A program made the position numbers and the translations under genes. A stretch of DNA of 64,000 nt from Cordylochernes scorpioides (taxonomy: Eukaryota; Arthropoda; Arachnida; Pseudoscorpiones; Chernetidae): NCBI GenBank assembly GCA_030710605.1, contig CP092876.1, forward strand, positions 67,022,115-67,086,114, written 5' to 3'. Every line of letters begins with the position of its first letter. Positions within the stretch are counted from its first letter, which is position 1. A model generated the notes under the pieces. It was not told the origin of the DNA. It did no database searches and saw only the letters and a list, made by a program, of their open reading frames with translations. This document shows positions 4,040 to 40,901 of this stretch, piece after piece.

Positions 4040-5605
4040 TACAGATCGTCCTAGTTTGGAGTATAGTCCAATTAATAAGTCCAGCCGTGACATATTCAAT
4101 ATACAGATCATCCTATGTGGGATTATAGCACTAAATAGATCAGGCCGCGGATATTCCAATCAAGATAGTCCTAGGATGTACTATAGTCCAATAAAGAGTT
4201 CCAGCCGTGGATTATTTAAACAGACCGTCCTGAGAAAGTTGGGTCCAATGAAGAAGTTCAGCTGTGACATATCGAATATACAGACCGTCCTATGTCGGAT
4301 TATAGCAATAAATAGGTATTCCAATCTAGATAGTCCTAGGATGTACTATAGTCCAATAAAGAGTTCCAGCCGTGGATTATTCAATCCAGACCGTCCTGAG
4401 AGAGTTAGGTCCAATGAAGAAGTTCAGCTGTGACATATCGAATATACAGACCGTCCTATGTCGGATTATAGCAATAAATAGGTATTCCGATCTAGATAGT
4501 CCTAGGATGTACTATGGTCCAATAAAGAGTTCCAGCCGTGGATTATTCAATCCAGACCGTCCTGAGAGAGTTAGGTCCAATGAAGAAGTTCAGCTGTGAC
4601 ATATCCAATATACAGTCCGTCCTATGTCGGATTATAGCAATAAATAGGTATTCCAATCTAGATAGTCCTAGGATGTACTATAGTCCAATAAAGAGTTCCA
4701 GCCGTGGATTATTCCATCCAGACCGTCCTATGAGAGTTGGGTCCAATGAAGAAGTTCAGCTGTGACATATCCAATATACAGATCGTCCTATGTCGAATTA
4801 TAGCAATAAATAGGTATTCCAATCTAGATAGTCCTAGGATGTACTATAGTCCAATAAAGAGTTCCAGCCGTGGATTATTCAATCCAGACCGTCCTGAGAG
4901 AGTTAGGTCAAATGAAGAAGTTCAGCTGTGACATATCCAATATACAGTCCGTCCTATGTCGAATTATAGCAATAAATAGGTATTCCAATCTAGATAGTCC
5001 TAGGATGTACTATAGTCCAATAAAGAGTTCCAGCCGTGGATTATTCCATCCAGACCGTCCTATGAGAGTTGGGTCCAATGAAGAAGTTCAGCTGTGACAT
5101 ATCCAATATACAGATCGTCCTATGTCGAATTATAGCAATAAATAGGTATTCCAATCTAGATAGTCCTAGGATGTACTATAGTCCAATAAAGAGTTCCAGC
5201 CGTGGATTATTCAATCCAGACCGTCCTATGAGAGTTGGGTCCAATGAAGAAGTTCAGCTGTGACATATCCAATATACAGATCGTCCTATGTCGAATTATA
5301 GCAATAAATAGGTATTCCAATCTAGATAGTCCTAGGATGTACTATAGTCCAATAAAGAGTTCCAGCCGTGGATTATTCCATCCAGACCGTCCTGAGAGAG
5401 TTAGGTCCAATGAAGAAGTTCAGCTGTGACATATCCAATATACAGTCCGTCCTATGTCGAATTATAGCAATAAATAGGTATTCCAATCTAGATAGTCCTA
5501 GGATGTACTATAGTCCAATAAAGAGTTCCAGCCGTGGATTATTCAATCTAGACCGTCCTGAGAGAGTTGAGTCCAATGAAGAAGTCCACAACCGCAGCTA
5601 ATCCA
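4040..5605 (+). repeat. 166-bp higher-order tandem satellite
   Basis: About eight to nine head-to-tail units of 166 bp. Landmarks such as GTCCTAGGATGTACTATAG recur at 166-bp spacing. Each unit is itself three diverged monomers of roughly 60, 59 and 47 bp that share a GTCCTA...CCAAT...CAGC-GTG...ATTCAAT plan. At the left edge (4096-4160) the third monomer is full length and carries AGATCAGGCCGCGG-like sequence that the later units have lost. Both edges decay into more divergent monomers (3960-4040 and 5605-5665). Open frames inside it shift by one base per unit, so they are not coding. Confidence 0.95.
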
Positions 5606-5664
5606 ATCGAGACAATCCCGTGAAGCAAGCGCTGCTGAAAGGTCGCGGATTATTCACGTATTGT

Positions 5665-6147
5665 TCGCAAGCGGCCGGCCGGCCACTCGAGCGAACACCT
5701 CAAGGTCTAGGCTTAACCTAAATACTCGGACATTGCCTCCTAATTGGACAGAAAGTGAGAAACGTCCTCTACATCTGCCACAAGTCTTCCTTCCTATCCC
5801 AGCGGCCTTCAAGTTATTGATTGATAAATCTCTTCTTTAAACGTCTCTCTCGATGACATTTCAATACTTTCTAAGCTGATACCTGTAGTGCTTGAATATA
5901 TTTCAAAATGTATCTTAATGATGATATTTAGGATTAAATGTATTTTCTATATAAGAGATTCTCTTAAATATTTCGTCTAATAAAAAATAAGTCCCAAAGT
6001 AAGCCGACACAAGGACATTGCGTTTTCTTCATATTTAGCTATAAAAAAAGGCACCAAGAATTTGAACTTTTAAATTTTCTATCAATCCAAATTTTTCCAT
6101 CATTCCAAATAGTCATTCCAAATGTTTACACTTGAGACGGATATATA
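5665..6147. other. Intergenic, no gene seen
   Basis: A short GC-rich opening (GGCCGGCCGGCC at about 5674) passes into AT-rich DNA with no terminal repeats, long frames or RNA motifs that I can recognise. Confidence 0.6.
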
Positions 6148-6300
6148 CACTCGTGGACAAAACTTAAGGAAGTTAAAAGTTATTGATATCACTGATCGTT
6201 TATTTATTCATTTTTTTTAAGGAGACAGAGGCAAATTTGTTCACACCTGGTTCACACTTGGTTACCGTGTAATCAAATCACCAAAGGCGAGTTTAAATAG
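6148..6300 (+). mobile_element. Tc1-type MITE family B, left part
   Basis: Starts after TATA with CACTCGTGGACAAAACTTAA and runs through the family-internal GGAGACAGAGGCAA and CACACTTGGTTA. The right terminal repeat is absent; the sequence passes directly into a mariner-like coding fragment. Best-preserved relative is 9948-10160. Confidence 0.75.
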
Positions 6301-6302
6301 GG

Positions 6303-6473
6303 CGATACAAACCTCGCAGGCGAAGTGGTCGACTATCAAATTTCGACGACCGGCCACTTCTAGCAGCCGTGGTAAAGGACGAAAGCTTGACAACGTTAAT
6401 GTTGGCCGAAAAATACAATTTGGACCATTTTACCATTGTTCGTTGTCTCTACAAGCTCAGAATCTGTAACTGA
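6303..6473 (+). pseudogene. Mariner-type transposase fragment (helix-turn-helix)
   Basis: A frame beginning upstream of 6318 reads RRSGRLSNFDDRPLLAAVV, then DESLTTLMLAEKYNLDHFT, then a stop at 6471-6473. The pattern RSGR-S-DD followed by a second helix-turn-helix (E-LT-LA-K-N-HFTIVR-L) matches the DNA-binding half of mariner transposases, which normally continues into the catalytic domain. Here everything downstream is missing. It sits immediately after a MITE left end, so it may be the remnant of a longer element that gave rise to family B. Confidence 0.6.
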
Positions 6474-6559: not shown

Positions 6560-6915
6560 CAATATTCACCAGAATTTCATCCAATGCATGAAATATTCTA
6601 GCGGACATGCTTCTTGTGTGTCCGCCGGTACAGCGGATATAGATTCCGTGTCAGCCCCCCGCGCCCAACAAGCGTGTCGAAGGCCCCCGGAGTTTCCGGG
6701 CAACGTGGGGATACATATTTTTTTTAGGGAGGGAAGGGAGGGGCAGATAACGGTCCGTGTGGCAGTTCTGGGAAAGGTCTGTCTTGCCTTTCTGAGCGAC
6801 CACATCTCTTCATGTCATCGCAAATATCAAACACTAATTACCCGGCCGGTCGGTCTCTGCGTCATCCCGAACGACACCAGGAAAATCTCGGCCGTTCCAA
6901 GATATATTTCCTTCT
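6560..6915. promoter_or_regulatory. GC-rich island with no clear coding signal
   Basis: A 350-bp GC-rich block with open frames on both strands (6522-6938 plus, 6566-6805 minus). The opposing frames cover the same DNA and neither shows a domain, so they are read as composition artefacts. A purine run (GGGAGGGAAGGGAGGGG, about 6728-6744) could form non-B DNA. Candidate cis-element upstream of the Sox exon. Confidence 0.3.
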
Positions 6916-6973
6916 GTGGCAGTAGATATTATTTCTAATGTCATGGTTACTTCTAATATATAACGTCCATCTG

Positions 6974-7659
6974 ATAAGGCACAATTTGGATTGTAGATTA
7001 TAAACACAAGGTAATAAGACCAAATCCAAATGAATAGTATCTAAACACTATTTACTACTTACACTTTTACTACTACAATTTACAATATACCACTTACACT
7101 ACAGTTTTACTACTACAATTTACAATTTAGTACTTACACTACACTTTTAATACTACAATTTACAATTTAGTACTTACACTACACTTTTAATACTACAATT
7201 TACAATTTAGTACTTACACTACACTTTTAATACTACAATTTACAATTTAGTACTTACACTACACTTTTAATACTACAATTTACTACTTACACTACACTTT
7301 TACTACTAAAATTTTCTAATTACACTACACTTTTACTACTACAATTCACAATTTACCACTTACACTACAGTTTTACTACTACAATTTACAATTTAGTACT
7401 TACACTACACTTTTAATACTACAATTTACAATTTAGCACTTACACTACACTTTTAATACTACAATTTACTACTTACACTACACTTTTACTACTAAATTTT
7501 TCTAATTACACTACACTTTTACTACTACAATTCACATTATCACATACAATACTTACACTACAGTTTTACTACTACAATTTACAATTTTACTACTTATACT
7601 TACCTACACTATAAACACTATTTATTTATCTGGATTTGGTTTTATTACCTTGTGTTTAG
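6974..7659. mobile_element. MITE family C carrying an internal minisatellite
   Basis: Inverted repeats of 28 bp with one mismatch, TAAACACAAGGTAATAAGAC at 7001 and its complement ending at 7658, enclose a tandem array. Outside them, AACGTCCATCTG (6962-6973) and AACGCCCATCTG (7660-7671) are near-identical direct repeats that could mark the insertion. The left outer segment also matches the compact copy at 50360-50505, so they are one family. Confidence 0.75.
7041..7610 (+). repeat. 40-bp AT-rich minisatellite
   Basis: Units of exactly 40 bp in the central part (TACTTACACTACACTTTTAA then TACTACAATTTACAATTTAG), with shortened and variant units toward both edges, about 14 in all. No spacers distinct from the repeats, so this is not a CRISPR array. 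It fills the interior of MITE 6974-7659. Confidence 0.95.
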
Positions 7660-20080: not shown

Positions 20081-20107
20081 CAATTGATCAAATAAAGGAT
20101 AATATAT

Positions 20108-20283
20108 TGTAGCAAAGTATTGTTTATTTTATTAACAGAGTATCATTTTTTTATGTTTATATTTTGCTACTCAGCAAACTTACCTCATTGCTTATCTTTT
20201 GTTTATCATTCATAGTTTGTTCATGCCTTAAATAAATTTCTGTGTCATCCTTAAGTTGGTATTTCCTAATTTTCCACGTGGGA
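20108..20283 (+). mobile_element. Solo LTR of the TRIM-like element
   Basis: Begins TGTAGCAAAGTAT and ends TTTCCACGTGGGA, 176 bp, flanked on both sides by ATAT (20104-20107 and 20284-20287). It is colinear with both LTRs of the element at 36178-36849. No internal region or second LTR is present, as expected after LTR-LTR recombination. Confidence 0.8.
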
Positions 20284-20510
20284 ATATAATAAGGGAGTAA
20301 ATAAAGGGTAGATAAAATGTAGGGAAATATATATAGTTGTGTATGTGTACAAATTTCTTTAGCAAGGAAGGTTTCTCCACCTTGAGAGAGTTCTCCTCCA
20401 GACAAGGTCTTCTTGAACACTCCTCAGTTCCATGCCGAGGAAGTACTAATTAGAAAGATGATGGTGTATTTTGTGATATTTATTTTTGTATATTCTTCAT
20501 GTTGTATAAA

Positions 20511-31983: not shown

Positions 31984-33101
31984 CTAGCGGACGTACCCGG
32001 CTTCGCCCGAGGTTTTACCCGAGTAAAGGTTTGTCTAACGAACATTTGCCCGTGTTTTACCCGAGTAAAGGTTTGTCTAACGAATCTCTCGATAAAGTGA
32101 ACATTTTTTCCCGGTCCCTTGAAAAATATTCGATAAGTTGAATAAATTCAATATTAATCGGTACCCGAGTAAAGGTCTGTCTAACGAACATTTGTTAAAA
32201 CAATTCTCTATAGGCTTATAAAAAGAAATAGATATATTTTGATAATTTGAAACTGATAAAGTGATCATTTTTTCCCGGTCCCTGTGTGCCGTGTCATTCT
32301 GAATTTTGTCTTTCCTAATTTTCTACATTACAAAATCATCGTTTTATCTAGTGAACATTTTTTCCCGGTCCCTTGAAAAATACTCGATAAGGTTGAATAA
32401 ATTCATGGTCGTTTATGGAAGATGGACGAAGTTCCCGGAGGTCATCTTGGGCAAGCTCCCGCGAAGCTTTTTTTCTTGTCTACTTGGCATAGCTGTGTCA
32501 CCAACTCTGCCCTGATTGGTCGGTGGGTACTTTGACTGTCGGCCGGCGGCCGGGCGAATCCATTCTCGCACGGGGTCTGCCCCACTCCAAACTTTTGGCA
32601 AAGCACTTTCTAATATTAAAGATTATTGTCTTCAATAATCTTTAAGAACAAAAAGTATAATAATTGAACGATAGGAAATTATAGTAAATAATTATACTAA
32701 ACTAAATGATGTAAAAATAATTATACATGAAATTTGAAATAAGTTTTAGAAAAGTTATCGTTAAGTCCACGGGAAAAGATGTAGCCAAAACAAATAGGTT
32801 TTTAACAGTGACACGTGAGCACCCGCCTCGAGACGCGCTCCTCTCTCCTAACATTACTCCTCCTCTTGAAAAAGCCTATCTCCGTCTCAATGGTGGCGCT
32901 GCTTGCGAGTTAAAGCTACAAATCTGCAAATAACTCTAAGGATATTAAAGATATTCAAGATATTATTTTTCGTAAACCTTTCCGGAGATACACCTAATAA
33001 TATCCCAATATTTCACGGCGATTGGATGTATGGTTTTCGAATCCATAGAGGACACACAGACACACACACACAGACATTCAATTTTATATATATATAGATA
33101 A
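31984..33101 (+). mobile_element. CTAG-head dispersed element, apparently full length
   Basis: Opens CTAGCGGACGTACCCGGCTT-CGCCCGAGG and closes with GGACACACAGACACACACAC and a TATATATAGATA tail. Inside, ATTTTTTCCCGGTCCCTTGA occurs near 32103 and again near 32357, so the copy carries an internal duplication. Other pieces of the family are at 1-386, 29812 and 37246-37643. A 63-residue minus frame and a 68-residue plus frame inside have no domain. Likely non-autonomous retroposon; class uncertain. Confidence 0.6.
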
Positions 33102-35680: not shown

Positions 35681-36177
35681 TACTATAGTATATCGTTTGT
35701 ATTGTATTTAGGTTCGTAGAAGATTTTGATGGTTTATTCGAAAATAATTATTAGTGTAAAAAACGCTAATTCTTTATCTGATGGATGGCCTTTAAAAATT
35801 CAGTTTTTTATATTATTTTATAATTTAACTCTCTCAACGAAATGAAACAGAAATGTATTCGTAAATACAGCGATGATATTCTACACACACACACTTTAGA
35901 TGGTGATTTAATAATATACAATCATATAATATTCAATTTTTTTTTATTAAAGCACTCTTCGTTGGGCAAAAATGTACTCGGGGAGAACTCGTGCGGAGAA
36001 GGATCAAAATATATAATTTTAACGAATATTCTAAAACTTAAAACATCATTTTAATTTATACATATAGTATCCGGTTATAATTTTACTCGGATAAAGCCTG
36101 GTTGTTGTCCTGTTCATTCGGCTAGTTGTGCATATATTGATCAAATGGACAAAATATGGTTATATTATTTAAAATAT

Positions 36178-36849
36178 TGTAGCAAAGTATTTATTATTTT
36201 ACTAACAGAGTATCATTTTTATGTTTTCTATTTTGCTTCTCTGTAAACTTCCCTCATTTATTTATCTTTTGTTCATCATTTATAGTTTGTTCTTGCCTTA
36301 AATTTCTGTGTCATCCCGACGTTTGTCTTTCCTAATTTTCCACGTGGCATTTTGGAGGAGATGCTGGGTAAATTAGGGAATCCAAACTGAAGATCGCCGA
36401 GTAGACCTAGAGGCTATGGGTGCTGTGATCTAATTTTCTGAAACTGGCTTCCACCGCCGTGTCAAAGTCAAGACTTGCCTCCAAGATGACGATGTCCCTA
36501 TAGACGATACGACGACAGAGCTGCTCTTCACGCCGCAAGAAAAAATGACGCAAAGGTACTAGGGGCAAAGTTACAAGACTTTGATGGAATCTTTGGCAGA
36601 AGAACGTCAGATCCATGTCAGTATCTACAATAATTGATAGCTGTGAGTCACAGCTCCCATAGAGAAGGAGCTATGTAACAAAGTATTTATTATTTTACCA
36701 ACAGAGTATTATTTTTTATGTTTATATTTTTCTACTCTGTAAACTTCCCTCATTTACTTATCTTTTGTTTATCATTCATAGTTTGTTCTTGCCTCAAATA
36801 AATTGCTGTGTCATCCCGAAGTTTGTCTTTCCTAATTTTCCACGTGGCA
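36178..36849 (+). mobile_element. TRIM-like miniature LTR element, copy 1
   Basis: Direct repeats 36178-36349 (172 bp) and 36674-36849 (176 bp) both begin TGTA-CAAAGTATTTATTA and end TTTTCCACGTGGCA. ATAT flanks the whole on both sides (36174-36177, 36850-36853). The 324-bp interior starts TTTTGGAGGAGATGCTGGG, in the primer-binding position, and ends with a purine-rich CATAGAGAAGGAGCTA before the right LTR, where a polypurine tract belongs. No gag or pol is present. A 69-residue minus frame in it is not a gene. Mobility would need enzymes from another element. Confidence 0.85.
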
Positions 36850-37245
36850 ATATGATACAATTCAAAATATTCCGAATGATTGAATTGTCATAGCGAGTGA
36901 GCAAGTTGAAAAAATATTCTGATATATGTATAGATGGTAAAATTTATATAAATCTTCTTGACTTGAAAAAAATAAGAGGATAGATAGAACGTCAGATGAC
37001 ATTACATATATTGGGTAAATAGATAAAAGAATTATATAAAATATTATATCTTAATAATCAGTTTTTAACATCAATTTACATTTGAAAATCCATTAGCGAA
37101 AAATATAGTTACACATACTTTTTTTAGAGCTTTTTAATAAAGAAAACTTTAATAAGCCTTAGAACTGGTTGGCATTCAAGACCTGTTCATAGAACATACT
37201 AATGTTCTAATATTACTATAAGAAAACATTACCAATCAGAGGGAT

Positions 37246-37643
37246 CAAGAGCCCCCCCGTCCGGCCGACGGCTAATCAGAGGGATTAAGAGGTCCTGGCG
37301 CGCGGGGGGCGGGTGACCTCCGGGAACTACGTCCATCTTCCATAAACGACCATGATTTTATTCGACTTATCGAGTATTTTTCAAGGGACCGGGAAAATAT
37401 GTTCACTAAATAAAACGATGATTTTGTAATGTAGAAAATTAGGAAAGACAAAATTCGGCATGACACGGGAAACAGGGACCGGGAAAAAATGTTCACTTTA
37501 TCGAGAGATTCAAATATACGAGTTTCAAATTATCGAAATATATCTTTTTTTATAAGTTTATAGAGAATTGTTTTAACTAATGTTCGTTAGAAAAACCTTT
37601 ACTCGGGTAAAACCTCGGGCGAAGCCGGGTACGTCCGCTAGTA
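37246..37643 (-). repeat. CTAG-head dispersed element, 5' 400 bp on minus strand
   Basis: The right end reads GCGAAGCCGGGTACGTCCGC-TAG, the exact complement of the 31984 head. TTTCCCGGTCCC modules and the GGTCGTTTATGGAAGATGG block are shared with 32400. At the left it breaks into a GC-rich segment (GGCGCGCGGGGGGCGGGTGA, 37297) unlike the full copy. Confidence 0.75.
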
Positions 37644-38261
37644 TTACTATAAGAAAACATTACCGATCGTGATACAGAAATATTATCATTAAAATTTCGG
37701 ACGGTAAAATAAACAAATTAGTATGATATTTGAATATTTTCAAATTCAGAGGATAAAAATTCCTTTCATATCTAATCATCGTTTTTCTATAAGAAAATAT
37801 AAATTAGTTATTGGTTTAATTTGAATAGGTTTTGTATAGGCTATATTTTAACTTTATCTTCTTCTATTTATCTACTTGTTGAAATTATAATCTCAACTTG
37901 TATGTTCAATGGAAAAGAAAGTTATAGTGGCCTTTGAACTTTACTTTTATATTTTCTGGCTCTTCAACCGAGTTCTACCCTGGTGAATGTTTCTCTGAAA
38001 GAATTTTATTTATTCTCATCAATCATGATTCGGCAATACCATCAGTTTATGACCACACACACACAAAGGTTAAATAGTAGACTATTATCTAGTACTTTAT
38101 TAACTTGAATTTTCCTCGAATGAAAATCTGACAAAGACATCTCTAGACTTGACTCTATATACTGATAAAATTTCAGCCAGATTGGTTAAATGTTGAGGTA
38201 ACGTATACGAAATATATAGTGAATAAACAAATAAATATATGCACATATATGGTGTAAATAT

Positions 38262-38350
38262 ATGGTAGAGCGCCATCTAGTGGAATAGAAACCAACTAAA
38301 CGTTGATTTAACCTGTTCCCTGATATTTGGCCAACCCATTTTCTTGATAA
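38262..38350 (+). repeat. Repeat G, copy 2
   Basis: GAGCGCCATCTAGTGGAATA, ACTAAACGTTGATTTAACCT, GTTCCCTGATATTTGGCCAA. Followed by the small palindrome TTTTCTTGATAAATCAAGAA. No mariner next to it here, unlike copy 1. Confidence 0.8.
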
Positions 38351-39319
38351 ATCAAGAAAAGCCAACCACGAATGCGTTTTAGGCTGTTGGCCCTCGACAG
38401 CGTGGTGCAGACTGTACCACTCTATTTTATTATATACAACTACTTGTATTACTTTACATTTTATGTTTCGTGCTTTATTTTGGAAGGGGGTGTAGCGATA
38501 CAAATATTACATACCTTTATATCGATGATCGATGTGCATTTTACATCTAAGTGAAACATTGAAATTATTTTTAAGCACTTCAGGGAATACTAGAATATTT
38601 TCTAATGAAATATGGGTGAAATATAAGTGAGGATATCAAGAGATGCTCGTTACCTAGCGACCAGTCCATTGTTGTAGTTACTTTGAGCCTAAATTTGCTA
38701 CGACTTGTTGTCCTCTGAAATTTCCTAGTAAATACATTTCTTTGTAACTAACAACAACAACAACAAGAATGGGATCCTGTTTAAGTAAGTGTCGCCATGT
38801 CAGTTTCCACTCCCTTCTAACCGATGTTGTTGTTGCAGGTTGTTCGCGCCGATGCTAGGTAAGAACTGCTTTTTGAATTTTACTTTCTCCTTTTGAGTTG
38901 AATACAGTCTTTTCCTTTATTGTGTATGTTTTGAAAACCGAACTTGAATTCTTAAAATTTGAAATTTAAACAGTTAATTCGCTATCTCTATTTTTACCAA
39001 CTATAGCAGACACATTTCATCATAAATTTGTAGTAGTTTAATAACGAGTCGTAAAAGAGAGTGGGAAGTAAACACAGCGGGGAACCTACACAAACCCTCG
39101 CAGTCTGATAGCTCATGTTAGCTATGTTTGTTTATAACCGCATTCATCTGAGTTTTATAAATACCGGAATATTATACAATTCAAATGTATTGTGTTGAGT
39201 GACCTCAAATATCTGAATATAAGAATCTTATATGTTTGTGAAAATATCCTTTTATTATATTCTAATTGTTTTCCTAAAAAAAATCAAGGGCATGAAAATA
39301 ATAAGAAAATACACAAAAC

Positions 39320-39490
39320 AGTTTGGAAAGCTATGGGACTAGCTTCCCTTGGTTTAATAATTTTAACCTGAACCTATCCTAACCTCACATAACCTTTTCA
39401 CTAACACACACTCACATGGCTTGTGTAAACCCTTTACACTAGATTTGGGTTAGTAAACCAGGGAGTTAGTCCCAAGACCTCCAAACCGCT
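39320..39490. mobile_element. MITE with long inverted repeats
   Basis: Left CAGTTTGGAAAGCTATGGGA-CTAGC (39320-39357) and right GTTAGTCCCAAGACCTCCAA-ACCG (39453-39490) are imperfect inverted repeats of about 38 bp. The centre contains CCTAACCTCACATAACC. Target duplication not resolved. 38351-39319 before it has a CAACAACAACAA run at about 38751 but nothing else I can name. Confidence 0.65.
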
Positions 39491-39747
39491 CTTTACCAAT
39501 CAATTATTTCTCTTAAAACCTGTGAGGAGATATCTTTGAATATTATTTTTTCTCAGTAAAACATTTTAAACAATAATAAATTAATATAGAAAAAGAGAAA
39601 TATCTATTTAAAGCGTTTTAAAAAAATCATATTTTGGTTTATAAAACATTCTCCCGCAATATAAAAAGTAAATTGTAAATAAAAAAACCATACAGCGCAA
39701 TTAGAATTACTAGAGTAAATCACTGTTTTAAAAAAAACCTCTAATAT

Positions 39748-40631
39748 TGTCACGTATAAAAATGAGAAGCGGCATATTTAAGGATGACAAGTCAATTTAT
39801 TTTTATCAAAACAATTTAAAATATATTGGAATGAAATAACAAAACAAACAACAACCAAAAGCTTTACTAAGACCTTTTAGTCTTATACAGATTCTCCAAT
39901 CAGAAATGTTTGGATACATGCAGAAAAAAGGTAATAGTACCTTAATGGCAATATGGTATTCATATAACGGGAAAAATTATATAAAGACAATCAAGCTAAT
40001 AAATTAGTTAGTCTGGGTAAATTGGAGGAAAATAAATTTATAGTATTAGAATGAAATAATGGAAAGTAATAAAATAAAAATATACAGAATAATAATATTA
40101 ATCTATATATAAATTAATAATCTGCGAATAAAATAATAAATATTCTGTTTTAAAACTCCTTCACTATGGGAGTTGTGACCCAAAGCTTGCAAATATTGTT
40201 GTTACTGGCTTGGGCCTTTTATATTTTAGTCAAAGATTTCCTCGACGTCTTGAAAGTGGTCCATAGTAGAATTAGGTTTTTTTATTGTGGCGTGAAGCGA
40301 TTTTGTAGTCAAAGCCTCTCTAGAAACGTAATTTTCTTGGAGGGAAGTCTTGAATTTGACACGGCGGTGGAATCCTGTAGTTCACAGAACCCATGGCCTC
40401 AAAATCTCATTGGCGATATTCAGTTTTTCTTCTTTAATCTACCCAGATCTTTTCCACCAAATTGTCACGTAGGAAATAAGATAAACTTAAGGATGGCAAG
40501 GCATTCTATTTTGACAGAAACAATTTCAAAATTGTTAGCATATATCAATAGAGAAGCAATAAGAGAAATATGTTGAGTAAAAATTAACGGAATAGATAAT
40601 ATGTGGTTAAAGTAATAAATATTCTGTTACA
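39748..40631 (-). mobile_element. TRIM-like miniature LTR element, copy 2, with nested insertion
   Basis: Mirror orientation of 36178-36849. The right LTR spans 40463-40631 (TGTCACGTAGG to ATTCTGTTACA); the left LTR spans 39748-40152 and is enlarged by a nested retroposon tail. ATAT flanks both ends (39744-39747, 40632-40635). The interior shares TTGACACGGCGGTGGAATCC (complement in copy 1) and CTCCCATAGTGAAGGAG-like purine tract. A 136-residue plus frame (40166-40576) is only the interior and LTR read through. Confidence 0.8.
39845..39920 (-). repeat. Hairpin-tail retroposon end, copy 3
   Basis: Plus strand CTTTACTAAGACCTTTTAGT then CTTATACAGATTCTCC, the complement of the tail at 18890. A CAACAACC stretch lies just before it. 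It sits inside the left LTR of the TRIM-like element, dating that element as older. Confidence 0.6.
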
Positions 40632-40901
40632 ATATAAATGAAAACATACTTATCAACTTGTATAGTGCTGGAATTTCACGTTTCAAACATTTGTGAAATT
40701 ATTTTCTCTCTTTAAAGAATACTATCATGGAACGCCATTTCTCTCCGCTCTTCGGAACTGTTTTCACCTCTTTTTATATTCAACTCCCAGATCATTTTAT
40801 ATAGCAATGATTGAAATAAGTTATTTCCGAAGTTGACAACACACACACTATACGTCTCTGTTCTAAAATAGAAATGGTTAGCCTCCACATAACTGTAATA
40901 A

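Follow-up and report, generated by a model that had tools for sequence, protein, structure and literature searches.

The closest known system to the element treated here, a terminal-repeat retrotransposon in miniature (TRIM) found in a stretch of the genome of the pseudoscorpion Cordylochernes scorpioides, is PbTRIM of the harvester ant Pogonomyrmex barbatus. PbTRIM measures 480-781 bp, is non-coding, possesses long terminal repeats (LTRs) of 152-184 bp with TG...CA ends, a primer-binding site (PBS) and a polypurine tract (PPT), generates a 4-bp target-site duplication (TSD) that most often reads ATAT, and was reported with 270 matches and with more solo LTRs (159) than complete elements (67) (PMC3532108). 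No autonomous partner was reported for it, and the same holds for biv-TRIM of bivalves, a small TRIM of animals that also occurs truncated and in tandem, in an account that mentions partners proposed for some other TRIMs (PMC6934838). TRIM architecture is also common to Helenus, Ajax and Cassandra (TRIMp3), with 4-bp TSDs in animal Helenus (PMC10886601), and a 4-bp TSD with an ATAT core, weaker in the 412 clade, was described for the Ty3/gypsy elements 297, Quasimodo and Transpac of Drosophila (PMC3276498).

The stretch analyzed, 64,000 nucleotides long and hereafter called the window, covers positions 67022115-67086114 of contig C14 in a genome of 2.62 Gb and 24 contigs, and holds two full copies and one solo LTR of an LTR element that is about 0.68 kb long and non-coding. 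This element resembles PbTRIM in size, LTR length, possession of PBS and PPT, lack of coding capacity, ATAT duplication and excess of solo LTRs, but its PBS is of the tRNA-Ala type instead of the tRNA-Leu type, its per-base preference for ATAT reaches 95-100% (84 3' flanks) against 56-74%, its LTR ends number 31,893 against 270 matches, counted by different methods, and a candidate partner, a gypsy element named GYP1, is at hand (PMC3532108). Two published 20-base PbTRIM LTR primers matched 36 copies of the present element no better than shuffled sequences did, the comparison being made via these primers alone. The LTRs of Helenus, Ajax and Cassandra hold tRNA or 5S sequence, whereas none was detected by Rfam in two copies of our element (PMC10886601); biv-TRIM is described without a typical PBS, whereas a clear tRNA-Ala site is present here (PMC6934838); with 297, Quasimodo and Transpac only the ATAT core of the target was compared (PMC3276498). 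A literature search, in its broader form by title and beginning of the abstract, yielded no published TRIM with a tRNA-Ala PBS among the matches listed. The kind of element is already known, and what is new is this very abundant, recently active family with a candidate gypsy partner. We regard it as highly probable that the element is a TRIM, i.e. a non-autonomous LTR retrotransposon, whose likeliest supplier of enzymes is GYP1 or a close relative of it.

Anatomy, abundance and age of the family

Copy 1 (36178-36849, plus strand) begins with a 5' LTR of 172 bp with TG...CA ends (36178-36349), followed by an interior of 324 bp (36350-36673), which contains stops in all six frames and hence has no coding capacity, as checked in this one copy. 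Three nucleotides past the LTR lies the PBS (36353-36368), which agrees with the tRNA-Ala type TGGTGGAGATGCCGGG at 14 of 16 positions, and at the other end the PPT AGAGAAGGAG (36661-36670) is followed by CTA and the 3' LTR of 176 bp (36674-36849). In the alignment of the LTR pair 160 columns are identical and 11 show substitutions, corresponding to a corrected divergence of 6.5%. Copy 2 (39748-40631, minus strand) is a more diverged relative with an interior 70% identical to that of copy 1; it consists of a 5' LTR of 169 bp belonging to a more diverged subfamily (40463-40631), an interior of 310 bp with a decayed PBS (40153-40462) and a 3' LTR of 405 bp (39748-40152), which owes its extra length to an insertion of roughly 230 bp and starts with TA instead of TG. 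The solo LTR (20108-20283, plus strand) is 176 bp long, shares 89% identity with the 3' LTR of copy 1 and terminates in GGGA instead of CA. ATAT directly abuts all six ends, at 36174-36177 and 36850-36853 for copy 1, where the 5' tetranucleotide can be read as a copy of the target site by the logic of empty sites in relatives (see below), at 39744-39747 and 40632-40635 for copy 2, and at 20104-20107 and 20284-20287 for the solo LTR.

This anatomy agrees with the first-pass annotation, made from the letters of the window, in the ATAT-flanked trio with LTRs of 169-176 bp, the homologous interiors, the purine tract ahead of the 3' LTR and the insertion-enlarged left LTR of the second copy, which is its 3' LTR on the minus strand. 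The TG...CA ends noted there for the two copies were found in the 5' LTR of copy 1.

The genome search proposed at that stage revealed a real family: 9,351 first-look candidates led to 40 scored matches to copy 1, namely copy 1 itself and 39 others with 86-91% identity across at least 656 of its 672 bases. Abundance was estimated by genome-wide pattern counts allowing up to three mismatches, with the reversed pattern as control. The LTR end followed by ATAT occurred 31,893 times and the junction of LTR and PBS 5,902 times, each with a single match of the control, so that both counts exceed their controls by at least three orders of magnitude. Going by the difference between these counts, there would be about four solo LTRs to each full copy, provided that both patterns are equally sensitive; among 20 LTR matches examined of 40 listed, 16 were solo-LTR-like and four lay within full copies. 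Ten of 120 randomly drawn 10-kb stretches (L031-L040; L-numbers denote genome loci whose DNA was examined) contained one full copy, two near-full LTRs and three fragments.

LTR pairs with more than 120 aligned bp were present in 44 of 49 full copies (LTR alignments 147-222 bp). Copies lacking paired direct repeats, which had been named as evidence against an LTR element, amounted to the remaining five, within the DNA examined around them. In 40 copies with both ends resolved the span ranged from 595 to 803 bp. LTRs are generally about 175 bp long, and about 216-222 bp in a younger subfamily, which includes L066, L070, L073, L076-L078 and L080. Purine tracts of the AGGAAGGAGCTA type precede other 3' LTRs of the family, a GGAG-type tract, recognised by that motif, stands ahead of five of the first 100 listed exact LTR starts, and AATAAA is present in 28 of 29 scored 5' LTRs. 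Paired LTRs, a tRNA-type PBS, a purine tract, solo LTRs, absence of coding capacity and a 4-bp duplication together support the identification as TRIM.

The family is recently active. Corrected LTR divergence has a median of 7.2% among the 30 matches closest to copy 1 and of 2.5% in copies with the exact primer site (14 measured of 19), and three of these 14 (L077, L078 and L080) show no LTR substitution at all over 217-222 bp. At L080 a tRNA gene match (43-113) lies 35-65 bp upstream of the substitution-free copy, and the LTR start motif is repeated there.

ATAT flanks, primer site and hairpin

The first-pass annotation had left two readings of ATAT, a 4-bp duplication with strong target choice or a part of the element itself. 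Flanks were counted with patterns for the LTR end and the LTR start, both of which require A/T twelve bases from the LTR. ATAT follows 77 of 84 LTR 3' ends (the first 100 listed exact LTR ends less 16 that are 5' LTRs) and precedes 77 of 95 LTR starts (the first 100 listed less the five purine-tract cases), or 68 of 83 when distinct 12-mers are counted. In the 40 resolved of the 49 full copies (nine were left out, and copies in duplicated segments counted apart) ATAT stands on both sides in 33, on one side in six and on neither side in one (L065). Four insertions (full copy L029, solo LTRs L042 and L057, gypsy element L081) have relatives with an empty site, in which the four positions occur once; the nearest relatives read ATAA, ACAT, ATAT and ATAT, respectively, and a second relative of L081 reads TCAT. 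An uninterrupted relative of the L081 insertion site with a single ATAT lies in the window itself, as part of the repeat inserted in the LTR of copy 2 (39874-40041, plus strand; empty-site alignment). Excluded from the empty sites were other junction-spanning alignments, namely self or duplicate matches (L002, L008, L010 and L023), those at L058 and L059, which were weak or gapped, and further relatives of L042 and L057 with weaker, gapped alignments.

Because the empty sites carry the positions once and the flanks are not always ATAT (18 of 95 on the 5' side and seven of 84 on the 3' side differ), the four bases belong to the target and are duplicated when the element inserts, with a strong choice for ATAT. 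The opposite reading, which takes ATAT as invariant element sequence, with inverted ends ATATTG...CAATAT as in a DNA transposon, and the direct repeats as tandem duplicates that arose by chance, could draw on how common ATAT is on either side, but it is at odds with the four empty relatives and the deviating flanks, with a primer site and purine tract placed as an LTR element needs them and with the frequency of solo LTRs; we consider it very unlikely, and ATAT as part of the element was rejected.

In most copies examined TGGTGGAGATGCYGGG is situated three bases past the 5' LTR. The CCGGG form of this site, searched as an exact 16-mer, has 320 matches in the genome and none for the control, and 20 loci examined comprised 19 TRIMs and one gypsy element. 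A tRNA-Ala-like pattern ending in GGCATCTCC has 45 genome matches, and ARAGORN called tRNA-Ala(tgc) in all three that were checked. Since the terminal CCA is not encoded in the tRNA genes of animals, the 16-mer represents a primer site rather than a gene.

The unique 5' region of the LTR (U5) and the leader can pair around the primer site in a stem of about 19 pairs, whose arms in copy 1 lie at 36321-36338 (U5) and 36370-36387 (leader), both on the plus strand. This hairpin is present in the sequence as a structure predicted by folding of copy 1 and of four relatives, with z-scores of -6.9, -5.6, -5.4 and -4.0 in the latter; GYP1 has a different fold of its own (z -2.6). Across 46 copies (of 58 stretches prepared, 12 near-duplicates or similar copies having been excluded by choice) 89.9% of the hairpin cells are paired, a value equalled by shuffles, with 36-61% in slid versions. 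Positions 1-1432 of L105 (C1:82268500-82270200) are occupied by a minisatellite with an 85-bp unit, repeated about 17 times, the unit being the hairpin region from U5 over the primer site to the leader.

Candidate partner and origin of the family

GYP1 (L068 and L081) is a Ty3/gypsy element of 5.4 kb, whose LTRs of 310 and 309 bp are identical in 309 of 310 columns. L081 is flanked by ATAT on both sides and has Pfam matches to gag and then to protease, reverse transcriptase, RNase H and integrase, in that order, in three overlapping frames that were read as they stand. Like the TRIM it possesses a tRNA-Ala primer site after a 3-nt spacer, and its LTR start TGTCACAAAGTATTT agrees with TGTAACAAAGTATTT of the TRIM in 14 of 15 bases (TGTAAC form; 13 of 15 in the TGTAGC form). 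A match as good as that of the TGTAAC form would be expected in about 1.7 of 100,000 random AT-rich 12-mers, given the common TGT and before allowing for the choice among several elements. The exact GYP1 LTR start occurs 128 times in the genome; of 100 listed, 33 are preceded by a purine tract (AAGAGGGAGTAA, in one case AAGAAGGAGTAA), and ATAT precedes 63 of the remaining 67 (52 of 55 distinct ones). Four 5' LTRs inspected directly were preceded by ATAT in three cases and by TTAT in one. A search designed to omit most TRIMs gave 747 places, and among 100 listed, 19 were classified as six GYP1, two GYP2, ten TRIMs and one unclassified element; a twentieth locus, L096, was off-centre and left out. 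GYP2 (L090 and L091) is a second gypsy family with a tRNA-Ala primer site, with the spacer AAG and with ATAT before TGTGAAATATG. Downstream of the gypsy element in L081 a tandem array of units of about 115 bp extends from 6689 to 7373.

On these likenesses we infer that the TRIM is cross-mobilised by the GYP1 lineage, in which GYP1 is the best-matching member seen and as such a candidate; the partner could be another member of this gypsy lineage. In the proposed course of events the TRIM LTR, which carries AATAAA, would be transcribed, the RNA would be packaged, its copying would start from a tRNA-Ala primer positioned beside the U5/leader hairpin, and the cDNA would be inserted at ATAT by a Ty3/gypsy integrase, most likely supplied by the 5.4-kb GYP1 (L081) or a close relative; recombination between the LTRs would then yield solo LTRs. 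Several observations weigh against this account. Besides the deviating flanks and the empty relatives that read ATAA, ACAT or TCAT rather than ATAT, window copy 2 fails to fold (z +1.95), and covariation in the hairpin did not exceed that of shuffles in the 46 copies. The interiors of GYP1 and TRIM showed no match above chance beyond the primer-site region, only four to five of the last ten LTR bases agree between them, and with seven to eight of ten bases the LTR end of GYP2 fits older TRIMs better.

The TRIM might instead have arisen by internal deletion from one particular autonomous gypsy element carrying, now or in the past, the TRIM LTR, instead of being cross-mobilised. What GYP1 has in common with the TRIM (LTR start, spacer of 3 nt, primer site, target) would suit such a descent as well. 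It is nevertheless a rather doubtful explanation, given that the TRIM interior matches L081 at the primer site only, that the eight gypsy-type primer sites found are all associated with other LTRs, and that no second kind of interior is evident in the first 100 listed of 3,945 exact LTR starts, 94 of which have target-like flanks, five GGAG-type purine tracts and one another flank. Least probable of all the readings considered is a retrozyme or an LTR element with a polymerase III promoter of the Helenus, Ajax and Cassandra type. Small size, lack of autonomy, paired repeats and high copy number would fit either, but no hammerhead, tRNA or 5S match at Rfam gathering thresholds lies inside the elements of the two copies searched (L002 and L080), the sole tRNA match is upstream of the LTR in L080, and a standard tRNA-Ala primer site and purine tract are present.

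Returning to cross-mobilisation by the GYP1 lineage, exact LTR starts are about thirtyfold more numerous for the TRIM than for GYP1 (3,945 vs 128). A bolder interpretation, put forward tentatively and as possible rather than probable, is that the TRIM is a non-coding LTR parasite that outgrew its gypsy host about thirtyfold and kept only those features on which recognition by the host enzymes depends: the LTR start, the tRNA-Ala site at a distance of 3 nt, and a strict ATAT target. The large U5/leader hairpin, not observed in this form in GYP1, might be a device of its own for capturing primer or enzyme, and the two would form an animal LTR counterpart of the pair of short and long interspersed nuclear elements, active still or until recently. 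A recently active TRIM with tens of thousands of insertions and a recently active gypsy element with the same primer site, LTR start and target reside in one genome, and hence cross-mobilisation of TRIMs becomes testable; the strict ATAT target in addition offers a clean site for integrase assays.

LTR fragments in Helitron-like elements and further observations

Three elements of the window, which we take to be Helitron-like from their CTAG end and hairpin, carry 42-67 bp of the LTR 3' end, located by alignment at 81-147 and 32287-32332 (plus strand) and at 37425-37466 (minus strand). The likeness between the last part of the LTR and a module of elements with a CTAG head, noted in the first-pass annotation, is therefore real, but the chimeric origin of the LTR suggested there found no support. 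A derivation of the LTR 3' part from a Helitron-like element is improbable in our view: 36-61 bp are indeed common to both at 80-92%, but in L018, L035 and L061 the shared module extends up to the exact terminus (..TTACA) of LTRs of older subfamilies and no further, and its upstream limit varies between elements. That the module stops at the very end of the LTR points to the LTR as the more probable donor, and a Helitron-like element probably took up the LTR end. By eye, a Helitron-like end with a GC-rich hairpin and a CTAG terminus near 37640 can be recognised at 37220-37641 of the window.

Two observations concern other sequences of the genome. In the random stretch L032 an open frame of 731 codons (4217-6412, plus strand) with a zinc-knuckle-like stretch resembles, by eye, the first open reading frame (ORF1) of a non-LTR retrotransposon. 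A TTAGG array, among 100 listed of 712 TTAGG places, lies inside a contig, 4.1 Mb from its start (C1:4116714-4117377 and on).

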